64,000 nucleotides of DNA, taken from the NCBI GenBank assembly GCA_949285255.1, contig CASDXV010000002.1, positions 1 through 64,000 of the forward strand. Direction: 5' to 3'. Both the position numbers and the translations under genes were made by a program. This stretch comes from an uncultured bacterium (GTDB lineage Bacteria > Cyanobacteriota > Vampirovibrionia > Gastranaerophilales > Gastranaerophilaceae). The notes beneath the pieces were generated by a model that was not told the DNA's origin, did no database searches, and was given only the letters and a program-made list of their open reading frames with translations. This document shows, piece after piece, positions 33,521 to 45,329 of the stretch (the stretch's first letter is position 1; every line of letters starts with the position of its first letter).

Positions 33521-34723
33521 CTATAATACAATTTGTGTGCCGACTATGAACTTATGAGAATCGGGTTTTGCGTCATTTTGGCAAAATACATAGTTAAAAA
33601 TAAGCTTTAGTGCCTGCCCTTTAATATAGTAATTAAGCCCTGCCGTGTATTCTCTTTGGTTATTGTGGTCTTTTGACCTGTCAGGGTTAAATTCGTCATA
33701 TCTTGCCAGAACTTCTAATTTTTTTGTCAAACGATAAGCCGCCGTAGCATAAAAACCCTCTGCTCTGTTTGATGTCGGGCCGCTTCCGCCGTTAGAGCCA
33801 TCAGAGTTAGCATATTCTGCTCTTGCCCAAAATCTTTTATATTCATAACTTAGTGCGGCTCCTGTCATAAAGTAGTCAAGGGAGTGTTTTTTGCCCGCCA
33901 CAATGCCGCCGCCGGCTACTATTTTTCCCCATTTACCATCGGTCTTGCCAAGAGGTTTAATATTTACCCAGCCGTCAAATTCAAAGCCGGGGAAAAATTC
34001 TCTAAAAAACGTATCGGAACTGTATCCGCCAAAGTCATAATCTACAAGGGAATAATCCCCTCTTACTCTAAGACCGAATTTTCTGACGTTTGCCAAGTTT
34101 CTTGAAATTTGAGAACGGGCAACAAAAGGCAATGTGTAGGGAGATTGAGCACCTTCATATCCTACCCCCGGTCGAGAATTACCTATTAAGACATTATGGT
34201 GAGGTATTCTGTTTGTTTCAAAGTAAGCATCTTGTATAAACTGCTGCAAAAAGCCTCTTGCATGGGTTGGCGTCGGGTCTAACATCAAGCGAAAACCTTC
34301 TTTACCGCCTCTAAATTTACCGTCAAATATGATATTTATAAGTGCCATATTAAATTTAGTGTCAGTATCTGAGTTTTCATTCATTTGAGTTGTTATATTA
34401 CCTTGAAGTGCTACCCATGTTTGAAAACTCTCCAGAGGCCCTCTGTCAAATTTCATGGTAAGTTGTTTTTTAAGCAGCTGCGAAGGTACATCAGTACGCT
34501 CGATTTGAAGTTTTAAGACATCTTTTGGAGCACTTTTTAAATTAGATAAAAACGTGTCTTTATCTGCTTGCAGCTGTTGTTCAAATTCTTCTTTTGTCTG
34601 CCCCGTAACACTTTGCACAAAATCCCCGTCAGGATTTTGCTCAAGGTGAATTTCCTCCTCAATAGCAAAAGCACAGGGAGAAAAAATAAAAAGAAATAAA
34701 AGAGCAGATAAAATCTTTTTCAT
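33521..34723 (-). CDS. Outer-membrane porin
   Basis: The product is 400 aa from the ATG at 34723, which begins a clear signal peptide (MKKILSALLFLFIFSPCAFA); an upstream in-frame ATG at 34765 would disrupt it. The mature part is a beta-barrel pattern of alternating residues with many aromatic-ended strands (FWARAEYANSDGS, YATAAYRLTKKLEVLARYDEF) and a terminal strand ending in VGTQIVL. It resembles the phosphate-selective porin O/P family. It implies a Gram-negative envelope. Substrate is unknown. It follows focA with a strong hairpin between them. Confidence 0.82.
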   Translation of the reverse strand: MKKILSALLFLFIFSPCAFAIEEEIHLEQNPDGDFVQSVTGQTKEEFEQQLQADKDTFLSNLKSAPKDVLKLQIERTDVPSQLLKKQLTMKFDRGPLESFQTWVALQGNITTQMNENSDTDTKFNMALINIIFDGKFRGGKEGFRLMLDPTPTHARGFLQQFIQDAYFETNRIPHHNVLIGNSRPGVGYEGAQSPYTLPFVARSQISRNLANVRKFGLRVRGDYSLVDYDFGGYSSDTFFREFFPGFEFDGWVNIKPLGKTDGKWGKIVAGGGIVAGKKHSLDYFMTGAALSYEYKRFWARAEYANSDGSNGGSGPTSNRAEGFYATAAYRLTKKLEVLARYDEFNPDRSKDHNNQREYTAGLNYYIKGQALKLIFNYVFCQNDAKPDSHKFIVGTQIVL

Positions 34724-34742
34724 TGTCCCAATTAATTTATAA

Positions 34743-34762
34743 GGCGGTCTATTTAGACCGCC
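34743..34762 (-). terminator. Hairpin between focA and porin gene
   Basis: GGCGGTCT-ATTT-AGACCGCC is a perfect 8-bp GC-rich stem just after the focA stop. On the minus strand it is followed by TTATAAATTAA rather than a pure T-run. It may therefore be a weak terminator or an RNA-stabilising hairpin that separates focA from porin expression. Confidence 0.6.
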
Positions 34763-34771
34763 CATAATAAG

Positions 34772-35647
34772 TTACTTACTTAAGTCTTTTCCGTGGTCAT
34801 CTCTTAGATATGCTGTCCAGAACAAAAGAACAACAAATACAAAAGCACCTACCATATTACCCAAAGTAACAGGCAACAGGTTACCAAGTAAGAATGATTT
34901 TATGTTAAGTGTTGCAAGCTGCTCAGCACTCAAGCCTGAAGCTGCAGCGATAGCAGGAGTAGCTTTCAAGAATAAACCGTTTGAGATAAAGTACATATTT
35001 GCAATACTGTGCTCATAGCCCGATGCAACGAATGTTGTGATAGGGAAAAATATTGCAAAAATCTTACCTATAACGTGGCGAGAAGATGAAGCCATCCAGA
35101 TAGCAAGACATACAAGCCAGTTACAAAGGATACCTCTTGTAAATGCTTCAACAAAAGTTAGGTTTACTTTTGTATAAGCGGTTGTTAAACCTAAAACACC
35201 AAGAGCTTCATGGGAGTTATGAGAGCAGCCAGTAAAATATATTATAGTAGCTAAAATTACAGAACCTACAAAGTTTCCTATATAAACTATTGTCCAGTTA
35301 CGAAGAAGTTTAGCAAGGCTTGTTTTCTTCTCAATTACGGAAAAAGTCATCATAACATTACCGGTAAAAAGTTCGGCACCTGTTAAAACAACCATCATAA
35401 GACCTGTAGCAAATGTCATTGCTCCGATTAACTTTGCAAAGCCCCAGCTTACAGCTTCCGTCCCTGTCATAACATTAAGTGAAACCTGCGCACCAAAAGC
35501 AATAAGTGCACCTGCTGCTATTGCAAGTACAAATGTTTTTGATTTTCTGAAGTTAGCTTTTGCAGGCATAACATTGTCAGCAAGTTCATGGGCGACATGG
35601 TTTGGTGAAATACAATCTTTTGTATCTAAGTTTTGTTGTTCAGTCAT
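34772..35647 (-). CDS. focA: Formate/nitrite transporter family channel
   Basis: The 291-aa product (start 35647, SD AAAGGAG) has six membrane segments and the FNT signature regions, including GAELFTGNVMMTF and GNFVGSVILATI, then FTRGILCNWLVCLAIWMASSS. FNT channels move formate, nitrite or hydrosulfide with protons. A longer ATG start at 35668 overlaps the ribosome site and is less likely. It is divergent from the Hyf/Ehr operon, which supports a formate- or redox-linked role, but no formate dehydrogenase gene is present nearby. Confidence 0.92.
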   Translation of the reverse strand: MTEQQNLDTKDCISPNHVAHELADNVMPAKANFRKSKTFVLAIAAGALIAFGAQVSLNVMTGTEAVSWGFAKLIGAMTFATGLMMVVLTGAELFTGNVMMTFSVIEKKTSLAKLLRNWTIVYIGNFVGSVILATIIYFTGCSHNSHEALGVLGLTTAYTKVNLTFVEAFTRGILCNWLVCLAIWMASSSRHVIGKIFAIFFPITTFVASGYEHSIANMYFISNGLFLKATPAIAAASGLSAEQLATLNIKSFLLGNLLPVTLGNMVGAFVFVVLLFWTAYLRDDHGKDLSK

Positions 35648-35690
35648 CTTTTTCTCCTTTAATTCCATACCTTTAAGACATCAACAAGAG

Positions 35691-35897: not shown

Positions 35898-37886
35898 ATG
35901 GAAGTAATGAACAGTTTTTTTACAGGAATAATCACACTTGTTTTAAGTGGTTTTATAGCAGCGCTTTTTAGCAAAAAATATAAAGTTGCAATTTTATCGT
36001 TTTTAACAACAGTTGCATTTGTTTTTTGTTTAATACCTGCTTTTAAGGTTTTTATTGAGGGAGAAAATTTAACCTATAGTGCTAATTTTAACCCGATTTT
36101 TCAGACGGTTAATTTTACTATAGACCCGCTTGGCGCATTTTTTATAACAGTAATATCAATAATGAGCCTTATGGCGGTTATTTATTCTAACGGATATTTA
36201 AAACCCTACCTTGAAAAGTCAAAAAACATAAACTCGCACCTTGTATTTTTACCGCTTTTAACAGCTTCAATGCAGTTGGTTGTGACTTGCTCAAACGCGC
36301 TTATGTTTCTTATTTTTTGGGAAATAATGTCACTTAGCTCGTTTTTCCTTGTTATTTTCGAATCGGATAAAAAAGAGGTTCTAAAAGCAGGTATAAAATA
36401 TCTTGTATTTATGCATGTGTGCGTAATATTTATAATCCTTGCCTTTGCACTTTGTGCAATAAACTCGGGAAGCTATGACTTTAGCGCATTTTCTGAAGTT
36501 CTAAAAAATAACTCGCACCTTGCAAATCTTGTTTTTGCCTTTGCTTTTATCGGCTTTGGCACAAAAGCAGGCTTTGTTCCTTTTCACAACTGGCTGCCTG
36601 ACGCTCACCCCGCTGCACCAAGCCATGTAAGTGCAATTATGTCAGGTGTTATGATTAAAACAGGTATTTACGGTATTTTAAGAATGCTATCAATTATGGG
36701 CACACCCTCAAAAGGTATTGCCTACGCTGTTTTAATTATCTCTGTTATATCAGCTCTTTATGGTGTGCTCTACGCCATAACTCAACACGATTTAAAACGC
36801 TTGCTTGCTTACCACTCAATAGAAAATATAGGTATAATAGGTATCGGCACAGGGGTTGGTATGCTATCTTTAAGCTACAATAATCCCTCTGTTGCGATTC
36901 TTGGTTTTGGCGGTGCTATTTTGCACATATTAAACCACTCTATATTTAAGGAATTACTGTTCTTAAGCGCAGGAAGCGTTTATATTAAAACTCATACAAG
37001 AAATATTGAAATATTAGGCGGACTTATTAAGTCTATGCCATATAGTGCAGTACTATTTTTAACAGGTTCGGTTGCAATATGCGCTCTGCCTCCTTTTAAC
37101 GGATTTATAAGTGAGTTTTTAATATACTTTGCAATGCTAAAAGGACTTTTAATAAATAACTTCTTTGCATTAATTGTCCTTTTGTTCTCAATAGCAGGTT
37201 TGGCTCTTGTCGGTACAATGGCTATATTATGCTTTACAAAAGCATTCAGCATAATATTCTTAGGCATGCCAAGGAGCGAAAATGCTAAAAATAACACCAA
37301 AGACTCTGACAGAGTAATGCTTATACCAATGGGGTTTTTAGCGCTTTTGACACTTTTAATAGGTGTAGCACCTCAATATATGTTTAACTTTGTTCTAAAA
37401 CCCGCTCAAGTGGTTATGGGAGCACAAACACTTGCAATACCCGCTCAATACGGCGATATTATGCAGACGATTTCAATCTGTGCTTTGTCGTTCTTGGCTT
37501 TTGTAGTTGTTTTACTTCTTATAAAAGCAAAATTCTCAAACAAAGTTGCACTGCATGAAACTTGGGGCTGCGGTTATGATAAACCCAATAACTTTATGCA
37601 ATACAGTGCTTCATCTTATGCAAGCCCGTTTTTATCTATGTTAAAACCTTTATTTAAGAAAGTTTTTGACATAGAAAAACCAAAACAACTCTTCCCCAAA
37701 AAAGCTCATTTCAGCTTACACATTGATGATATTGAAGAAGCATACATAATAAATCCGCTTGTTAAATTTGACGAATGGTTCTTGTCAAAATTTGAAAGCA
37801 TTCAAAGCGGCAATATTCAAAGCTACATAAAATACGGCTTGATATTTTTAGTACTGATAATAATTGGAAGTTTCTATATAGGATAA
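35898..37886 (+). CDS. hyfB: Hyf/Ehr complex antiporter-like subunit (HyfB-like)
   Basis: The 662-aa membrane protein belongs to the NuoL/MrpA-like proton-transporting subunits. Key charged residues are present: the TM5 glutamate in FLIFWEIMSLSSFF, the TM7 lysine in GFGTKAGFVPFHNWLPDAHPAAPS, and HDLKRLLAYHSIENIG. It has about 14-16 helices and a C-terminal extension after residue 540, as in HyfB. In the complex it would pump H+ or Na+ coupled to redox chemistry. It heads a six-gene operon with gaps of 3-11 nt or overlaps. An internal ATG at 35907 is an alternative start. Confidence 0.92.
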   Translation: MEVMNSFFTGIITLVLSGFIAALFSKKYKVAILSFLTTVAFVFCLIPAFKVFIEGENLTYSANFNPIFQTVNFTIDPLGAFFITVISIMSLMAVIYSNGYLKPYLEKSKNINSHLVFLPLLTASMQLVVTCSNALMFLIFWEIMSLSSFFLVIFESDKKEVLKAGIKYLVFMHVCVIFIILAFALCAINSGSYDFSAFSEVLKNNSHLANLVFAFAFIGFGTKAGFVPFHNWLPDAHPAAPSHVSAIMSGVMIKTGIYGILRMLSIMGTPSKGIAYAVLIISVISALYGVLYAITQHDLKRLLAYHSIENIGIIGIGTGVGMLSLSYNNPSVAILGFGGAILHILNHSIFKELLFLSAGSVYIKTHTRNIEILGGLIKSMPYSAVLFLTGSVAICALPPFNGFISEFLIYFAMLKGLLINNFFALIVLLFSIAGLALVGTMAILCFTKAFSIIFLGMPRSENAKNNTKDSDRVMLIPMGFLALLTLLIGVAPQYMFNFVLKPAQVVMGAQTLAIPAQYGDIMQTISICALSFLAFVVVLLLIKAKFSNKVALHETWGCGYDKPNNFMQYSASSYASPFLSMLKPLFKKVFDIEKPKQLFPKKAHFSLHIDDIEEAYIINPLVKFDEWFLSKFESIQSGNIQSYIKYGLIFLVLIIIGSFYIG

Positions 37887-37892
37887 TAAAAA

Positions 37893-38810
37893 ATGGCGAT
37901 TAAGATTTTAAATTTGATAATTGTTTTATTTGTACCTTTCCTAATGCTTGGAATAATCAAAAAAACTAAGGCATTCTGGGGCGGAAGGTACGGCGCACCG
38001 GTTTTGCAGCCGCTATATGACTTTGTAAAACTTATGAAAAAAGATTTTGTAATAAGCAAAACCACAAGCGGTATTTTTAGAATTACACCTGTAATTGTTA
38101 TCGCAAGTGCTTTGTTTGCAGCACTTTTTGTACCGCTTGCCTCATCAAGCGCCATTATTAATATCCCCGCGGGATTTATAATCTTTGCGTATATTTTAGG
38201 ACTTTCAAAGTTCTTTTCTCTAATAGGTGCAATGGACACAGGCAGCAGCTTTGAGGGTATGGGGGCTTCTCGCGAGGCTTGTTTTACAACAATTGTAGAG
38301 CCTGCGTTTTTTATGCTTTTGGCCTCAATTATGGCACTTAGCGGAAATTACACATTTGATGCTCTTTCAAAAATTATAGAAAACTCGGGAAATTACGGCA
38401 TATTGATTTGCATATTTGCGCTAATTGCGCTATTTATAATGATTTTAACGGAAGGCTCAAGAGTTCCCGTGGATGACCCTGCTACTCACCTTGAACTTAC
38501 TATGATTCATGAAGTTATGATTTTAGACAACTCTGCTGCAGATTTAGCACTCATTACTTGGGCATCGGGCATTAAGATGCTGCTTTTATCATCGCTTATT
38601 GCAGCAATTGTTATACCGCAAGGGCTTCCTCAGTGGATAGCTGTTTTAGCTTACCTTGCTTTAATGTTTATAATATCCGTTATTATCGGAACTATTGAAT
38701 CTGCTACGGCAAGAATTCGTATGTCACACGTTTTTGAGTTTATTTTTGTAATGAGCTCATTTGCGCTTGTTGTACTTGCTCTTGTTGTTGCAAGGATGTT
38801 TGGAGGCTAA
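37893..38810 (+). CDS. hyfC: Hyf/Ehr complex NuoH-like membrane subunit (HyfC-like)
   Basis: The 305-aa protein with about eight helices matches the HyfC/HycD/NuoH family: RYGAPVLQPLYDFVKLMKKD at the N-terminus and the conserved acidic segment EGSRVPVDDPATHLELTMIHEVMILDNS. This subunit anchors the peripheral arm and carries the charged channel that couples electron flow to ion pumping. It begins 6 nt after hyfB. Confidence 0.94.
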   Translation: MAIKILNLIIVLFVPFLMLGIIKKTKAFWGGRYGAPVLQPLYDFVKLMKKDFVISKTTSGIFRITPVIVIASALFAALFVPLASSSAIINIPAGFIIFAYILGLSKFFSLIGAMDTGSSFEGMGASREACFTTIVEPAFFMLLASIMALSGNYTFDALSKIIENSGNYGILICIFALIALFIMILTEGSRVPVDDPATHLELTMIHEVMILDNSAADLALITWASGIKMLLLSSLIAAIVIPQGLPQWIAVLAYLALMFIISVIIGTIESATARIRMSHVFEFIFVMSSFALVVLALVVARMFGG

Positions 38811-38813
38811 TTT

Positions 38814-39467
38814 ATGGAAAACGGTTTTATAATACTATTTGGGCTAACGATGCTCTACTTGGCTGCAACAAGCAGGCTGGTAGCACATATAAGACTGCTT
38901 GTAGTGCAAGGCATATTGCTGTTTTTAATTTGCGCTTGCAATTTTGAACATCAACACGCTTTAAACATAGCTTTCTTAACCGTTGAAACACTCATTGTAA
39001 AATCAATCGTTATACCTTGGTTTTTGTTTAAAGTTGTTAAAAAAACCCACGCTAACCGTGATATCGGGGCAAACATACCTCACTTTTACTGCCTTGTAAC
39101 GGCAAGTATAATACTTATAGCAGGTTTTTTGGTTTCAAATTATTTTACAGGCTCAAGCACAATGAAAATGATATCTCCGATTTATTTTGGAGTTTCAATT
39201 GCAACAATAATAATAAGCTTGTGGCTTATCACAATTAAGCATAAAATCATCTCTAACGTCATTGAATTTATCACAATGGAAAACGGTATTTTTCTTTTGT
39301 CATTATCAGTCGCAAAAGAAATGCCCGTGCTTGTGAATATGGGCGTTTTGCTTGATGTATTTATTGCTATATACATTCTCGGTTTATTCGTAAATGAAAT
39401 AAACAGAGAATTTAATGACCTAGAAGTTTCTAACCTGTCAGATTTAAAGGACTACAACAATGATTAA
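38814..39467 (+). CDS. hyfE: Hyf/Ehr complex membrane subunit (HyfE-like)
   Basis: The 217-aa protein has seven or so helices and fits HyfE, a NuoK-like membrane subunit. It shows TVETLIVKSIVIPWFLFKVVKKT, followed by the helix with ITMENGIFLLSLSVAKEMPVLVNMGVLLDVFIAIYI, which has the buried glutamate. It lies between the NuoH-like and second NuoL-like genes, exactly the hyf gene order. Its end overlaps the next gene by 8 nt. Confidence 0.88.
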   Translation: MENGFIILFGLTMLYLAATSRLVAHIRLLVVQGILLFLICACNFEHQHALNIAFLTVETLIVKSIVIPWFLFKVVKKTHANRDIGANIPHFYCLVTASIILIAGFLVSNYFTGSSTMKMISPIYFGVSIATIIISLWLITIKHKIISNVIEFITMENGIFLLSLSVAKEMPVLVNMGVLLDVFIAIYILGLFVNEINREFNDLEVSNLSDLKDYNND

Positions 39468-40890
39468 TGTGATTTTGATATTTCCGATTGTAGCTTGCAT
39501 ACTTATGGCACTTATTAAAAAAAGAGCCTTCGACTGTGCAATGGTTAATGTTTATGCGCTTTTACACATCGTATCAACGACGTTACTTGCGCTAAACATA
39601 GGAAGAGAAAACAATATACCCTACTTTACCGTAGATAATACCAATTTGATATTTTTGATAATTTTATCTTTGGTATTTTTTATGGTTGCAATTTATAACA
39701 CAGGATACACAAAAACTCTTGATTATCCTGACAAAAAAATAGGGCACTACTCGTTTATGATAATGGTTTTTGTCCTTGCAATGACAGGAACTATTTTATC
39801 AAGCAACTTAGGTATAGCGTGGATTTTTGTTGAGGCAACAACACTCTCAAGTGCTTATTTAATTTATTTCAACAAAACAAAGCACTCAATTGAAGCGGCT
39901 TGGAAGTATGTTTTCATATGCTCAATAGGTATTGCGCTTGCTTTTGTGGGAATAATTTTCTTAAACATAGCACAAGGCAATATAAACACACTTGATTTTG
40001 CACAACTCTACAAAAATGCTCTGCTTTTTGACCCTTTCTGGTTAAAGTTGTCTTTTGTGTTTATGCTATTTGGTTTTGGTACAAAAATGGGTCTTGCACC
40101 TGTTCACTTCTGGCTGCCTGACGCGCACTCGGAAGCACCCTCGCCGATTTCTGCACTTTTATCTGCAACGCTTTTAAACTCTGCATTTTTGGTTATTGTA
40201 AGAGTATTTAAAGTCCTAGACATTGCTCAATGCGACGCTTGGGCAAGAACAATGCTTTTAATAACAGGTTTTGTATCACTTTTTGTAACGGCAGTATTTG
40301 TATATCACATAAAAAACTACAAAAGAATGCTTGCATACTCTTCAATTGAAAATATGGGCATTTTGGCAATAGGTACGGCTCTTGGCGGAGCAGCTTTGTA
40401 TGCCGTTATTTTACACCTTATAGGCCACTCGCTTGCAAAGGCATCATTCTTTTTAACATCAGGGAATGTACTTGAACTTTTCAATACAAAAAGAATAAAA
40501 TCCGTTCGCGGTCTTATGGAAGCAGACAAAAAAACAGGCTGGCTGTGGATATTTTCATTCCTTGCAATATGTGCTTTCCCTACATCAGTCTTGTTTATCA
40601 GCGAATTTATAATGATAAAAACGATGATTATTGAAAAACACTACCTGCTATGTGCCTTATTTGTAATTCTTTTAACAATAGTACTTTGGGGCATAGGAAG
40701 AGTTGTTATAAAAACTACATTTGACAAATTAAGCGAGGATAAAGTTCAAAGCGTACAAGAAAACAAGAAAAAACTCTGCGCTTGTATGTTTATACCTCAA
40801 GCAATTATGCTTATTATAGTGTTTGTCTTGGGCGTATACATTCCTCCTTTCTTAAACAGCATAATTAACTGCGCAACTGCAGGATTTTAG
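39460..40890 (+). CDS. hyfF: Hyf/Ehr complex second antiporter-like subunit (HyfF-like)
   Basis: The 476-aa membrane protein is a second NuoL/M/N-type subunit. It has the TM5 glutamate in AWIFVEATTLSSAYLIYF, the TM7 lysine in GFGTKMGLAPVHFWLPDAHSEAPSPISALLS, and KNYKRMLAYSSIENMGILAIG. It corresponds to HyfF, so the complex has two antiporter-like pumps. The ATG lies 8 nt inside the end of the hyfE-like gene. Length is normal. Confidence 0.92.
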   Translation: MINVILIFPIVACILMALIKKRAFDCAMVNVYALLHIVSTTLLALNIGRENNIPYFTVDNTNLIFLIILSLVFFMVAIYNTGYTKTLDYPDKKIGHYSFMIMVFVLAMTGTILSSNLGIAWIFVEATTLSSAYLIYFNKTKHSIEAAWKYVFICSIGIALAFVGIIFLNIAQGNINTLDFAQLYKNALLFDPFWLKLSFVFMLFGFGTKMGLAPVHFWLPDAHSEAPSPISALLSATLLNSAFLVIVRVFKVLDIAQCDAWARTMLLITGFVSLFVTAVFVYHIKNYKRMLAYSSIENMGILAIGTALGGAALYAVILHLIGHSLAKASFFLTSGNVLELFNTKRIKSVRGLMEADKKTGWLWIFSFLAICAFPTSVLFISEFIMIKTMIIEKHYLLCALFVILLTIVLWGIGRVVIKTTFDKLSEDKVQSVQENKKKLCACMFIPQAIMLIIVFVLGVYIPPFLNSIINCATAGF

Positions 40891-40901
40891 GGGATAATAA
40901 A

Positions 40902-42365
40902 ATGAACTGGATTAAAACAAAAAATAATACTAAAATTAACTTAAATGAAATTCCCTCCCTTGATATAGACACCCTAAGGGATGAGATAATCAAGCTAAAT
41001 AAGCGCCCTGTAGGCTTTTTTGGCAAGGAATGGGGCGAAGGGTCTACAAGACTTTTTGTTATTCTTGCAGATGATGAAAACTCAGACCTTTACGTTTCAT
41101 CTTGCATATTTGACGCAGATGAAAAAGGCTATGAGTCACTGACACAGACAATACCGTCTTTCCACGTATTTGAAAGAGAGTTTTATGAGCAATTCGGCAT
41201 AAAACCGCTCAACCACCCTTGGCTAAAGCCTCTACGCTCTCACAAAAAAGAATATAAGTTCTTTGAAATGGAAGGTGAAGAAGTCCACCAAGTAGCGGTA
41301 GGGCCGATTCACGCCGGCGTTATTGAGCCGGGGCACTTTAGATTTATGTGCAACGGAGAAACCGTTTATCACCTTGAAATTATGCTCGGTTATCAAAACA
41401 GAGGGGTTGAAAAACTTATGGTTGAATACCCCACAAACCAGCTTGCAGAGTCAATTTGCGGTGACAGTGTAATTGCTCATAACCTTGCTTATTCAAAAGT
41501 TATGGAATGCCTAAAAGATGTAAAAGTTTCAAAAAGAGCCCAGCTTATAAGGACTATGGCGCTTGAGATGGAACGGGCTGCAATTCACATAGGGGACTTA
41601 GGCGCTATAGCCGGTGATATCGCTTATCTTATGGGAGCATCGGTTTTTGGCGCTACAAGAACTCTTGTAATTAACACTATGCTTGAATTCTCAGGCAGCC
41701 GCTTTGGCAGAGGCTTAATAAACGTAGGCGGTGTTAATTTTGATATAGATAACGAAAAAATTGAACGTGCTACAAAAACCCTTACTAAAGTTGAAAAAGA
41801 CGTAGACAGAATGGTTAAAACAATGTTAAAGAACTCTTCTGTTATGTCAAGGTTAGAAAAAACAGGTACAGTAAGTACTGAAAAAGCCCTTGAAATAGGT
41901 CTTGTAGGTATGGCAGCAAGAGCTTGCGGGGTTAACTTGGACTCTCGTTTTGACTTTGCCGATGAATGCTTTAAAAGTTTGGCACTGCCAAGAAAACTCT
42001 TTAAAGGCAAAGGAGATGTTAATTCAAGATTTAAGTTAAGATATCAAGAAACCATGGAATCCTTAAGTATAGCAAAAAGAATACTTGATATGCTTAAAAA
42101 CGGATATAAAGAAGAAGTTTTAAACACCGAGCAAAATGCGCTCAGCGCAAATTCTATGGCTATTTCAATTGTTGAAGGCTGGAGAGGCGAAGTTGTTCAT
42201 ATAGCCCTCACCGATATGAATGCAAACCTTTCAAGGTACAAAATTAAAGACCCGTCGTTTAACAACTGGTACGGTCTTGCTCTTGCGGTCAGAAACAACG
42301 GGGTATCTGACTTCCCGCTTTGTAACAAGAGCTTTAACCTATCGTACTGCGGAAATGATTTATAA
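40902..42365 (+). CDS. hyfG: Hyf/Ehr large subunit, NiFe ligands partly lost (HyfG-like)
   Basis: The 487-aa protein fuses a NuoC-like N-terminus (residues 1-120, with FHVFEREFYEQFGI) to a NuoD/hydrogenase large-subunit domain (PIHAGVIEPGHFRF, YQNRGVEKL). In true NiFe hydrogenases two CxxC pairs bind the metal. Here the L1 site reads C186-G-D-S189 before H193, and the C-terminal L2 site reads C483-G-N-D486, so one cysteine of each pair is replaced. This fits the Ehr group (hydrogenase-related complexes lacking the NiFe site). It probably does not make H2; its real substrate is unknown. Confidence 0.88.
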   Translation: MNWIKTKNNTKINLNEIPSLDIDTLRDEIIKLNKRPVGFFGKEWGEGSTRLFVILADDENSDLYVSSCIFDADEKGYESLTQTIPSFHVFEREFYEQFGIKPLNHPWLKPLRSHKKEYKFFEMEGEEVHQVAVGPIHAGVIEPGHFRFMCNGETVYHLEIMLGYQNRGVEKLMVEYPTNQLAESICGDSVIAHNLAYSKVMECLKDVKVSKRAQLIRTMALEMERAAIHIGDLGAIAGDIAYLMGASVFGATRTLVINTMLEFSGSRFGRGLINVGGVNFDIDNEKIERATKTLTKVEKDVDRMVKTMLKNSSVMSRLEKTGTVSTEKALEIGLVGMAARACGVNLDSRFDFADECFKSLALPRKLFKGKGDVNSRFKLRYQETMESLSIAKRILDMLKNGYKEEVLNTEQNALSANSMAISIVEGWRGEVVHIALTDMNANLSRYKIKDPSFNNWYGLALAVRNNGVSDFPLCNKSFNLSYCGNDL

Positions 42366-42375
42366 GGAAAAAATT

Positions 42376-43134
42376 ATGTTTGATACACTAAAATCAAGAA
42401 TTTATCAGGGAAACCAATTTATAAAAGACATTAAAAACGCCCCTATGCGAGAACAATTTAGAGGACTGCCAAAACTGTGCAAACAAAACTGTACAGAGTG
42501 CAAAAAATGCCTCTCTATCTGCCCTACAGGAGCGCTTAGCCTTGAACCTTTCTCAATTGATATGGGAAAATGCACATTCTGCGGAGCTTGCAAAAACATC
42601 TGCAAACACGGGGCAATTGATTTTACAAACTTCTACAAACTAAGCTCTACAAAAAGAGAAAACTTAATCATAAAAGAAAATATGACTCCTCAAGAGTATG
42701 AAAAAACAGCTATTGAGGTTAGAAAAGAAATCAAAAGAGTATTCAAAAAATCTCTAAAATTAAGACAAGTATCGGCTGCAGGCTGCAACGGATGTGAAAT
42801 GGAGCTTAACGCTTGCTCTAACGTAAACTTTGATATGGGAAGATTTGGTATAGACTTTGTCGCATCGCCACGTCACGCCGACGGGCTTGTAATAACAGGG
42901 CCTATTTCAGAAAATATGGCTTACGCACTTGAAGACTGCTACAAATCAACTCCTGACCCAAAAATCGTCATACTTTGCGGCTCATGTGCTATCTCAGGCG
43001 GAGTTTTCCAAAACAGCGACAAACTAAATCGTGAATTTTTAGATAAGTATCCTATAGACCTATACATCCCGGGTTGCCCCGTGCATCCGCTAACCTTTAT
43101 TAACGGGGTGCTGGGATTTATATCTGACAAATAA
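42376..43134 (+). CDS. Fused ferredoxin-like + small subunit (HyfH-HyfI-like)
   Basis: The protein is 252 aa from the ATG at 42376, which has AAGGAAAAA upstream. The upstream ORF extension overlaps hyfG and has no ribosome site. Residues about 35-85 carry two 4Fe-4S motifs (NCTECKKCLSICP and CTFCGACKNIC; the second lacks the usual proline). Residues about 130-252 are NuoB/HyfI-like with all four cluster cysteines (GCNGCEMEL, CGSCAISGG, PGCPVHP). The electron-input and docking subunits, usually two proteins, are thus joined. It ends the operon and converges on metY. Confidence 0.9.
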   Translation: MFDTLKSRIYQGNQFIKDIKNAPMREQFRGLPKLCKQNCTECKKCLSICPTGALSLEPFSIDMGKCTFCGACKNICKHGAIDFTNFYKLSSTKRENLIIKENMTPQEYEKTAIEVRKEIKRVFKKSLKLRQVSAAGCNGCEMELNACSNVNFDMGRFGIDFVASPRHADGLVITGPISENMAYALEDCYKSTPDPKIVILCGSCAISGGVFQNSDKLNREFLDKYPIDLYIPGCPVHPLTFINGVLGFISDK

Positions 43135-43136
43135 AT

Positions 43137-44402
43137 CTATACGCTTTTTAAGGCGTCTTCAATATCATTTAGAATATCGTCAACATTTTCTAAGCCGACA
43201 GAAAGCCTTACAAGACCGGGGTTTATACCGCAAGCTACAAGCTGCTCATCGGTTAATTGTCTGTGTGTAGCCGAAGCGGGGTGAAGTACGCAAGTTCTGA
43301 TGTCCGCTACATGCACTTCATTTGATGCCATTTTTAGACTGTCCATAAACTTAATGCCGTTTTCTTTACCGCCCTTAACAGTCACTGCCATAACTCCGCT
43401 TTGACCGTCAGGTAAGTATTTCATCGCCAGTTTATGGTACTTATTATTCTCCAAACCGGGGTAGTTAACATGTTCAATTTTAGGGTGTTTTTCTAAGTAT
43501 TTAGCCACTGTTATAGCGTTTTCACAGTATCTTTTCATTCTAACTGCAAGTGTTTCTAACCCAAGGTTCAAAAGAAAACCGCTATGACCCGAAGGATACG
43601 CGCCAAAGTCGCGCATTAACTGCATTCTTGCTTTTATTATGTATGGAGCAAATGAATAATCCCTTGTGTATATTGTCCCATGGTAAGATTCATCAGGTTC
43701 ACAAAACTCGGGGAACTTACCGTTAGTATAGTCAAACTTGGCTCCGTCAACTATTACGCCGCCTACTTGCAGGGCATGTCCGTCCATATACTTTGAAGTA
43801 GAGTGAATTACTATATCCGCACCAAAGTCTATAGGCTTACACAATATTGGTGTAGCAAAAGTATTATCTACAATAAATGGAAGTCCGTTTTTATGAGCAA
43901 CTTTAGCAAACTTTTCAATGTCTAATATTTGTAGCGAAGGGTTAGTTAGAGTTTCACCAAATATTGCTTTGGTATTAGGCTTAATCTTGGATTGTATTTC
44001 CTCTTCATCAGCATCAACATCTACAAATATACACTCTATTGCAAGTTTTTTTAGAGTATATGCAAAAAGATTTACCGTACCGCCATATATTGCACTTGTG
44101 CTAATGAAACTATCTCCCGCCTGACACAGGTTCAATATAGACATCAAAGACGCCATCTGCCCTGATGAAGTACACATAGCAGCTACACCGTGCTCTAGGT
44201 CCGCAATTTTCTTTTCTACAACATCAACTGTAGGGTTAGTAAATCTTGAATAGATGTGAGATTTTGTAGGGTCATCAAAAACCGCTGCAATCTCTTGAGT
44301 GGAAGTGTAGCGAAATGTAGTACTTTGATATATAGGCATTACCCTTGGGCCGCCGTTTTCCGGTGTGTAGCCTGAGTGCAGGCATTTAGTTTCATCTTGC
44401 AT
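43137..44402 (-). CDS. metY: O-acetylhomoserine sulfhydrylase family enzyme
   Basis: The product is 421 aa from the ATG at 44402, which has GAGG 9 nt upstream; the ATG at 44420 lacks a site. It is a PLP enzyme of the Cys/Met metabolism family, with the cofactor lysine in HSTSKYMDGHA, GETLTNPSLQ and VDNTFATP. Length and MPIYQSTTFRYTSTQEI suit O-acetylhomoserine aminocarboxypropyltransferase (MetY), which makes homocysteine from sulfide. Methionine gamma-lyase is a close alternative. No SAM riboswitch was found upstream. Confidence 0.88.
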   Translation of the reverse strand: MQDETKCLHSGYTPENGGPRVMPIYQSTTFRYTSTQEIAAVFDDPTKSHIYSRFTNPTVDVVEKKIADLEHGVAAMCTSSGQMASLMSILNLCQAGDSFISTSAIYGGTVNLFAYTLKKLAIECIFVDVDADEEEIQSKIKPNTKAIFGETLTNPSLQILDIEKFAKVAHKNGLPFIVDNTFATPILCKPIDFGADIVIHSTSKYMDGHALQVGGVIVDGAKFDYTNGKFPEFCEPDESYHGTIYTRDYSFAPYIIKARMQLMRDFGAYPSGHSGFLLNLGLETLAVRMKRYCENAITVAKYLEKHPKIEHVNYPGLENNKYHKLAMKYLPDGQSGVMAVTVKGGKENGIKFMDSLKMASNEVHVADIRTCVLHPASATHRQLTDEQLVACGINPGLVRLSVGLENVDDILNDIEDALKSV

Positions 44403-44447
44403 ATTTTTAACCTCAATCATTTTAATATTACAGTAAACTTATTTATA

Positions 44448-45329
44448 TCATAGTGCAAATTTTGTTAAATAAATTATAACACCCGCAAACGCACTTATTA
44501 AAAACAGTGCACCAATCAGGATGAGTGAGTCTTTTTTATTTTTATTTCTTGTTAAAATAATCCATATTCCAAGCCCCGAATTTGAGCAAAGACCCGCTAT
44601 TAATGAGCTAAAGGCAATTGAACCTTTTATAAAGAGCATAATAAGTGCAACAGATACGGCGCAATTTGGAATAAGACCAAAAAACGCTGCCATAAAAGGT
44701 TGAACAATAGAATCTGACATAAGGTGCGCGCCTAAATTTTCTGCCGAGCCAAAAAGAGTTATTAAAATATTAATTATTAAAGTCAAAACAAAAATAAAAA
44801 GACTTATTGTAAAAGTATGAACCAAAGGGTGCAAAATAAGCTCTTTTTTTATTTTTTTACCTATATTATGCTCACAGCAACCAACTTCAGACGTTATTTT
44901 AAGCGTTTTATCTTCTTTTATTTCTTTTGGAAAAATAAAGTCAAAAGCATATCCAGCCATAATTCCTATTAAAATTTTTATCAAAATAACAGGAATAACA
45001 AGAGAGGATTTATCAGGCATAGAGAGTAAAACAGGTATGGCCTCATCTGAAGTTGACAGATAAACTGCAAGCAAAGTACCTCTTGTAATTAAACCTCTGA
45101 TGTATAAAACACTTGCTATAATTGAAAATCCGCACTGCGGAAAAGAAGCAACAAAAGCACCGATTAAAGGCGCGTATTTACCCGAGCGCCTTATATAGCT
45201 TGAAACTTTGTCAAATTGATAATACTCGATAAACTCTGTTGCAAGAAAAGTTAAAAACAATAAAGGAATTATAGGAACCAAATCCAAAAGTGCGTCTTTA
45301 AAACTTTCCAAAAAAATAATGCCCGACAT
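44448..45329 (-). CDS. Putative heavy-metal/manganese permease (ArsP_2-like)
   Basis: The 293-aa protein has about ten hydrophobic segments in two similar halves. Each half has a loop with conserved polar residues (GAFVASFPQCGFSIIASVLYIRG and GLIPNCAVSVALIMLFIKG). This duplicated PQCG/PNC pattern fits the permease family annotated as putative manganese transporter or 10-TM heavy-metal exporter. Between the halves is a cytoplasmic loop with GCCEH, a possible metal ligand. The start codon lies inside the loop of a terminator-like hairpin, suggesting controlled expression. Confidence 0.72.
   Translation of the reverse strand: MSGIIFLESFKDALLDLVPIIPLLFLTFLATEFIEYYQFDKVSSYIRRSGKYAPLIGAFVASFPQCGFSIIASVLYIRGLITRGTLLAVYLSTSDEAIPVLLSMPDKSSLVIPVILIKILIGIMAGYAFDFIFPKEIKEDKTLKITSEVGCCEHNIGKKIKKELILHPLVHTFTISLFIFVLTLIINILITLFGSAENLGAHLMSDSIVQPFMAAFFGLIPNCAVSVALIMLFIKGSIAFSSLIAGLCSNSGLGIWIILTRNKNKKDSLILIGALFLISAFAGVIIYLTKFAL

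Follow-up and report, generated by a model that had tools for sequence, protein, structure and literature searches.

An Ehr complex lacking Ni-Fe ligands and an associated FNT channel gene in gut Gastranaerophilales

The operon and its neighbors

The window analyzed here, a 64,000-nucleotide stretch of DNA from an uncultured bacterium, contains a six-gene operon on the forward strand (35898–43134) whose products matched HyfB, HyfC, HyfE, HyfF, HyfG, and a fused HyfH-I, in that order, in profile searches. The first gene (35898–37886) encodes a 662-aa HyfB-like antiporter subunit (PF00361, 1.8e-55). It is followed by genes for a 305-aa HyfC/NuoH-like membrane anchor (37893–38810; PF00146, 1.2e-33), which was aligned with E. 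coli HyfC, HycD, and NuoH; a 217-aa HyfE-like membrane subunit (38814–39467); and a 476-aa HyfF-like antiporter subunit (39460–40890; PF00361, 1.3e-47). The matches of the HyfB-, HyfE-, and HyfF-like proteins to hydrogenase 4 subunit B (1.3e-172), the NCBIfam hydrogenase 4 membrane subunit (8.9e-18), and hydrogenase 4 subunit F (6.7e-94), respectively, were all below the cut-offs of those models. The last two genes encode a 487-aa NuoC-D/HyfG-like large subunit with neither Ni-Fe ligands nor a C-terminal tail (40902–42365; PF00346, 8.7e-33; PF00329, 6e-07) and a 252-aa fusion of a HyfH-like ferredoxin to a HyfI-like small subunit (42376–43134; PF01058, 4.7e-28, with Fer4 domains). The fusion gene probably starts at 42376, in agreement with its relatives, rather than at the mechanically assigned position 42220, which overlaps the large-subunit gene. 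A preliminary description of this DNA covered only the interval 40902–43134. The two genes that it recognized there, the large-subunit ORF with its C186-G-D-S189 motif and the fused ferredoxin/small-subunit gene, are real, but they are only the last two of the six. The operon is not a chance arrangement: the same six-gene order recurs throughout the order, and many other phyla have it as well.

Upstream of the operon, and divergent from it, is a gene on the reverse strand (34772–35668) for a 298-aa FocA-like anion channel of the FNT family (PF01226, 4e-75). Downstream of this gene on the same strand is one for a 414-aa outer-membrane porin (33521–34765; PF07396 Porin_O_P, 5.6e-09). These two genes, missed in the preliminary description, are the most informative neighbors of the operon. 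At its other end the operon is adjoined by a gene for an O-acetylhomoserine sulfhydrylase (43137–44420). This gene and one for an ArsP-like permease (together 43137–45329 of the window) run opposite to the operon and are likewise found behind it in a genus-mate (G091, locus L186).

The source genome is 1.6 Mb and 92% complete; its gene content was assessed through family searches and individual stretches. The named close full-length matches came from Candidatus Gastranaerophilales or Melainabacteria; very probably the host belongs to this group and lives in the gut, in line with the earlier presumption of a gut fermenter.

The large and small subunits are homologous to those of group 4 hydrogenases and complex I, the Ni-Fe-binding CxxC motifs have been lost (in comparison with 35 relatives), and the operon includes a NuoH-like anchor and antiporter-like membrane subunits. 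These are the features by which Ehr complexes are recognized, and on this basis we assign the predicted operon product to the Ehr complexes and not to the hydrogenases; published Ehr complexes, including that of Geobacter (GSU0739-45), were compared by description. The same assignment had been proposed earlier, and it is now backed by sequence, operon composition, fold, and tree. A six-subunit membrane-bound NiFe hydrogenase without hydrogen-binding motifs was described in gut Melainabacteria (eLife 2013, PMC3787301), and such complexes were named Ehr in a study that proposed an FDH-Ehr complex for sibling lineages (PMC6349859). The sections of these two papers available to us thus already report Ehr in gut Melainabacteria and related lineages, and complexes of this kind are known. 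As described in those sections, published Ehr complexes share with ours the group 4 hydrogenase architecture, the absence of Ni-Fe ligands, the antiporter-like subunits, and the bacterial group; those of Margulisbacteria and Saganbacteria are described with an fdhA or nuoEF partner, whereas the window Ehr has neither. The function of Ehr complexes was still termed unknown in 2023 (PMC10284858).

A further close parallel is E. coli hydrogenase 4/FHL-2 (hyfABCDEFGHIJR-focB), whose genes B-C-E-F-G-H-I are arranged identically and whose operon region likewise includes a formate channel gene. In contrast to E. coli hyf, the window operon contains no hyfA, hyfD, hyfJ, or hyfR, and H and I are fused; the complex lacks the Ni-Fe ligands and C-terminal tail of hydrogenase 4, and searches of the order revealed no formate dehydrogenase.

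The former Ni-Fe site and the predicted electron and ion paths

Conservation in the large subunit was determined with two sets of sequences, 44 relatives from the same order and 35 relatives from many phyla. Alignments with these relatives showed that the two CxxC pairs of a group 4 [NiFe] hydrogenase are not present in the large subunit. The former L1 motif (R-x-C-G-x-C in hydrogenases) is S184-I-C-G-D-S189 (41451–41468, forward strand; alignment of the 35 relatives). The C186-G-D-S189 sequence reported earlier is therefore present, with C186 at the position of the first Ni-Fe cysteine, but C186 is not conserved: within the order position 186 was Cys in 31 relatives and Val, Asn, Ala, Thr, or Ser in 12, and in the multi-phylum set it was Ala in 24 of 35, Cys in 9, and otherwise Val or Ser. 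Because of this variability C186 is unlikely to be a metal ligand. Position 189 was Thr, Ser, Glu, or Ala in the multi-phylum set.

The former L2 motif lies at the C-terminus (S481-Y-C-G-N-D-L487; 42342–42362, forward strand), where it aligned with C-Y-S-C-T-D-R of HycE. The alignment of SFNLSYCGNDL with SLDPCYSCTDR of E. coli HycE/HyfG was free of gaps, and HMMER and MAFFT agreed on it. The true L2 ligand positions are thus occupied by S481 and G484, both of which were invariant, and C483 stands opposite the Ser between the two; within the order position 483 was Cys in 38 of 44 relatives and Ser or Ala in 6. The second motif of the preliminary description, C483-G-N-D486, cannot be read as half of a CxxC pair, since it is out of register and C483 is not at a ligand position. 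With S481 and G484 at the L2 positions and C186 variable, we conclude from the alignments that the Ehr family has lost every Ni-Fe ligand and has not simply retained one half of each pair. A mononuclear metal site formed by half CxxC pairs was rejected on the same grounds. None of the four Ni-Fe positions was a conserved Cys among the 35 multi-phylum relatives, and no relative examined had the full set of four ligands.

The large subunit stops at L487, just past the L2 motif, at a point where E. coli HycE runs on. The HycE maturation protease cleaves after the Arg aligned with L487, and the large subunit, which ends there, has no C-terminal tail for such a protease. The missing tail is consistent with the absence of HypD, which was found neither in the source genome (G000, 92% complete) nor in 145 relatives (0 of 146, with a positive E. 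coli control); the earlier statement that no maturation (hyp) genes are nearby thus holds, for HypD, for the genome and its relatives. A hydrogenase with unusual ligands, of which C186 and C483 might look like leftovers, or a decaying pseudo-complex is barely credible and is already contradicted by these results: neither cysteine is both conserved and in register, HypD is absent, and six genes conserved across many phyla do not have the appearance of decay.

Although the ligands are gone, the pocket is far from variable. Residues H137, E142, H145, G187, D188, D239, S481, Y482, G484, and D486 were invariant among the 35 relatives from many phyla; the codons for H137, E142, and H145 lie within 41310–41336 on the forward strand, and E142 aligned with MbhL E21. 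This invariance over many phyla argues that the altered pocket has a specific function. An AlphaFold model of the large subunit (pLDDT 87 overall) had HycE (7z0s_E, TM 0.86) as its best fold match; confidence was low at the pocket loop (134–143) and the C-terminus (483–487), and pocket geometry was left out of the interpretation. In a small tree, with Hyc/Hyf, MbhL, and complex I as its few references, the Ehr sequences formed one clade (support 94) that joined Hyc/Hyf (support 100) and fell outside MbhL and complex I. The tree placement called for in the preliminary description therefore groups Ehr with Hyc/Hyf.

The small subunit had been described as having intact iron-sulfur cysteines, and the proximal [4Fe-4S] cysteines C137, C140, C204, and C234 were indeed invariant in 43 close relatives. 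The proximal motif has hydrogenase C-x-x-C spacing, and the nearest solved chains were MbhJ and HycG. About five small-subunit homologs had Asp or Asn at the positions of C137, C204, and C234, perhaps representing a subgroup without a proximal cluster. The ferredoxin domain keeps one full [4Fe-4S] set (C49, C66, C69, and C72); the other set (C39, C42, C45, and C76; window positions 42490–42603) was incomplete in approximately half of the homologs.

Alignment of the two antiporter-like subunits with NuoM showed that HyfB retains the Glu/Lys/Lys/Glu equivalents of the proton-path residues E144, K234, K265, and E407, and that HyfF retains those of E144, K234, and E407, the same three of four as E. 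coli HyfF. Key charged residues are thus present in both of the subunits previously proposed to be proton pumps, and redox-driven ion translocation by the complex would be consistent with them.

Some of these features are shared with respiratory complex I, which belongs to the same superfamily, has the pump residues, and has a His/Asp pair in its pocket. H137 and D239 occupy the positions of a His and an Asp that in complex I lie close to where quinone binds. The pocket might accordingly bind quinone, with the complex acting as a small ferredoxin dehydrogenase, that is, a ferredoxin:quinone oxidoreductase, and a MenA-like protein of the UbiA family is encoded in the source genome. We consider this unlikely. 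The complex has no NADH module, its proximal motif is the hydrogenase-like C-x-x-C and not the CC of complex I, and the quinone Tyr of complex I (Nqo4 Y87; PMC7684303) is not in the large subunit, where G187 aligns with it. The available sections of the eLife 2013 study report that neither quinones nor terminal reductases were found in gut Melainabacteria (PMC3787301). Quinone synthesis was rejected as support, since the MenA-like protein scored far below the family cut-offs and almost every genome had a UbiA match whether or not it had Ehr.

Association of the FNT channel gene with Ehr

The FNT gene was found in 35 of 146 genomes of the order, and 34 of these 35 also contained the Ehr large subunit; the genomes surveyed were mostly metagenome-assembled and fragmented. 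When the FNT genes were shuffled within genera, 23.2 shared genomes were expected compared with the 34 observed, and none of 20,000 shuffles reached 34 (p<=5e-5). A held-out set of 179 further genomes gave the same result: FNT matches, three of them broken or partial, were found in 50 genomes, all 50 of which had Ehr, and there were no matches among the 118 held-out genomes negative for Ehr. Ehr does occur alone, with no FNT gene in 23 of 107 Ehr genomes. In three genomes (G226, G304, and G323) the FNT gene was broken or a remnant and the Ehr large subunit was intact.

The channel gene tracks Ehr and not pyruvate formate-lyase (PFL): 13 FNT genomes had no PFL, and all 23 genomes with PFL and no Ehr were also without FNT. 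A PFL association was considered as evidence and set aside, because it was significant only without stratification (p=1e-4) and not within genera (p=0.13). The near restriction of the FNT gene to genomes with Ehr in Gastranaerophilales is the new observation of this study; the available sections of PMC3787301 and PMC6349859 contain no mention of it.

Joint gain of neighboring genes could produce such a pattern, with the FNT gene traveling in a cassette and having no functional tie to Ehr. FNT and Ehr were within 10 kb of each other in 24 genomes, and in two more (G063 and G083) they were adjacent across a contig break. However, the association still held in at least 15 genomes, from six genera, in which unrelated genes surrounded FNT; therefore linkage alone is an insufficient explanation. 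Together with the result for the 118 Ehr-negative genomes, this makes hitch-hiking quite unlikely. Co-occurrence is nevertheless no proof that the channel and the complex take part in a common reaction.

The porin gene adjoined FNT in 29 of 34 loci examined. Its position was different in genus g3 and G081, after the gene for the Ehr small subunit, and in G078, a genome with no FNT, where it was divergent from Ehr.

The transported anion and a working model

Several observations bear on the anion carried by the channel. Against solved structures the FNT protein scored 190 bits with FocA, 86 with HSC, and 75 with NirC. Nearly all of 53 FNT orthologs kept the FocA residues T91, K156, and H209, together with the terminal Y-L-R, which is reported to be typical of formate-type FNT channels (PMC5572259). 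At the position of FocA Leu167, the invariant Leu of the FocA subfamily (PMC5525234), 51 of the 53 had Arg. Identity was 38–40% to FocA structures and 46% to the algal channel LCIA. Formate is our best guess for the anion; it is not certain, because by identity the channel resembles LCIA a little more than FocA and has Arg at the Leu167 position. Formate is favored by three further, independent hints: the E. coli hyf operon ends with focB, the subunits of Geobacter Ehr (GSU0739-45) were more abundant on formate (PMC7894505), and one genome with Ehr and no FNT (G035) carries pflB and a gene for a pflA-like radical-SAM protein immediately after the Ehr operon (L185:12153–15302).

Hydrosulfide channels also belong to the FNT family, and the sulfane sulfur reductase MBS of Pyrococcus is, like Ehr, a hydrogenase relative without a Ni-Fe site that pumps ions and uses a pocket near the proximal cluster (PMC7684303). 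A sulfane-sulfur (polysulfide) reductase of this archaeal type, with hydrosulfide exported through the FNT channel, might therefore be envisaged, and the O-acetylhomoserine sulfhydrylase gene beside the operon would fit. However, MBS activity needs a three-Cys proximal cluster with a shortened loop, which the window small subunit does not match, having four cysteines (C137-x-x-C140, C204, and C234) with C-x-x-C spacing. MBS also has other pocket residues, and MbhL E21, which is lost in MBS, is retained here as E142. In addition, the channel scored much higher with FocA than with HSC, and among the loci read, those of the window's genus were the only ones with the sulfhydrylase gene next to Ehr. 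An MBS-like reaction is thus highly improbable.

We favor the reading that Ehr is a Hyf/Hyc-derived, ferredoxin-linked ion pump without a Ni-Fe site, partnered by an FNT channel and linked to formate, and consider it reasonably probable. With no Ni-Fe site there would be no H2 chemistry. Electrons would enter through the fused ferredoxin domain, with ferredoxin as the likely carrier because the complex has its own ferredoxin domain and no NADH module is encoded in the operon. From there they would move through the conserved proximal [4Fe-4S] cluster to the remodeled pocket at the old Ni-Fe position. This redox step may be coupled to movement of H+ or Na+ through HyfC/HyfE and the two antiporter-like subunits. 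The FNT channel, usually together with the outer-membrane porin, would be the physiological partner of Ehr, exchanging a small anion, most likely formate, with the outside while Ehr works. The pump could serve redox balance in formate-exchanging cells and work both ways as conditions demand, oxidizing ferredoxin while pumping ions or, driven by the proton motive force, reducing it.

The molybdopterin oxidoreductase family PF00384 was found in none of the 146 genomes of the order, with positive controls, and thus no classical formate dehydrogenase was found in them. In its absence no known enzyme would join formate to the Ehr complex, and contact with formate would be indirect or novel. The E. 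coli FocA channel needs an active formate hydrogenlyase in order to re-import formic acid (PMC11841067). By analogy, if the channel relied on Ehr in a similar way, this would account for FNT not being kept without Ehr and for Ehr being found at times without FNT. That the remodeled pocket itself handles formate/CO2, or binds formate as a redox substrate, with electrons from ferredoxin, we regard as very unlikely; if true, it would make Ehr a Mo- and W-free formate-linked ion pump in place of H2 evolution.

The ion gradient might instead drive electrons up to ferredoxin, feeding FeFe hydrogenase, radical-SAM enzymes, and biosynthesis. This direction was put forward in the available sections of the eLife 2013 study, which reported Rnf and formate dehydrogenase to be absent from gut Melainabacteria and proposed ferredoxin reduction driven by the proton motive force (PMC3787301). 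Rnf was likewise absent from all 146 genomes here, and many Ehr genomes without FeFe hydrogenase had PFL and no long-ORF PFOR match, so that little reduced ferredoxin would be made in them. Operation in this direction would, however, require a hypothetical low-potential donor, and reversal alone leaves the FNT channel unexplained; we consider it possible but somewhat unlikely. Ehr was present in 19 of 20 genomes without FeFe hydrogenase, as if it replaced H2 evolution, but this complementarity (p=2e-10 unstratified) was dropped as main evidence, because within genera it had p=0.06 and it may reflect shared ancestry.

The tie between Ehr and FNT, replicated across the order where molybdopterin formate dehydrogenase is absent, provides a concrete substrate candidate for Ehr, a complex found in many phyla. 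Combined with the way Geobacter Ehr responds to formate, this tie makes the long-standing question of the Ehr reaction testable. For gut Melainabacteria, a group with poorly understood bioenergetics, it also adds detail on how energy is conserved at the membrane.

Among 88 Ehr loci the commonest non-Ehr neighbor was a regulator-like gene (24 loci). A formate dehydrogenase or NuoEF partner next to Ehr, as in Margulisbacteria, was rejected on this basis and on the absence of PF00384. In two loci (L088 and L090, Bacteroidota/Ignavibacteria) a gene for a SulP-like anion transporter, assigned by sequence reading only, adjoined Ehr and an HTH-EIIA gene. In 24 loci from other phyla (for example, L064, L066, L074, and L122) HTH_17 was fused to PTS EIIA_2. 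Outside Gastranaerophilales this HTH_17-EIIA_2 gene usually lies immediately 5' of the Ehr operon, which suggests that Ehr is regulated by carbon or PTS status.
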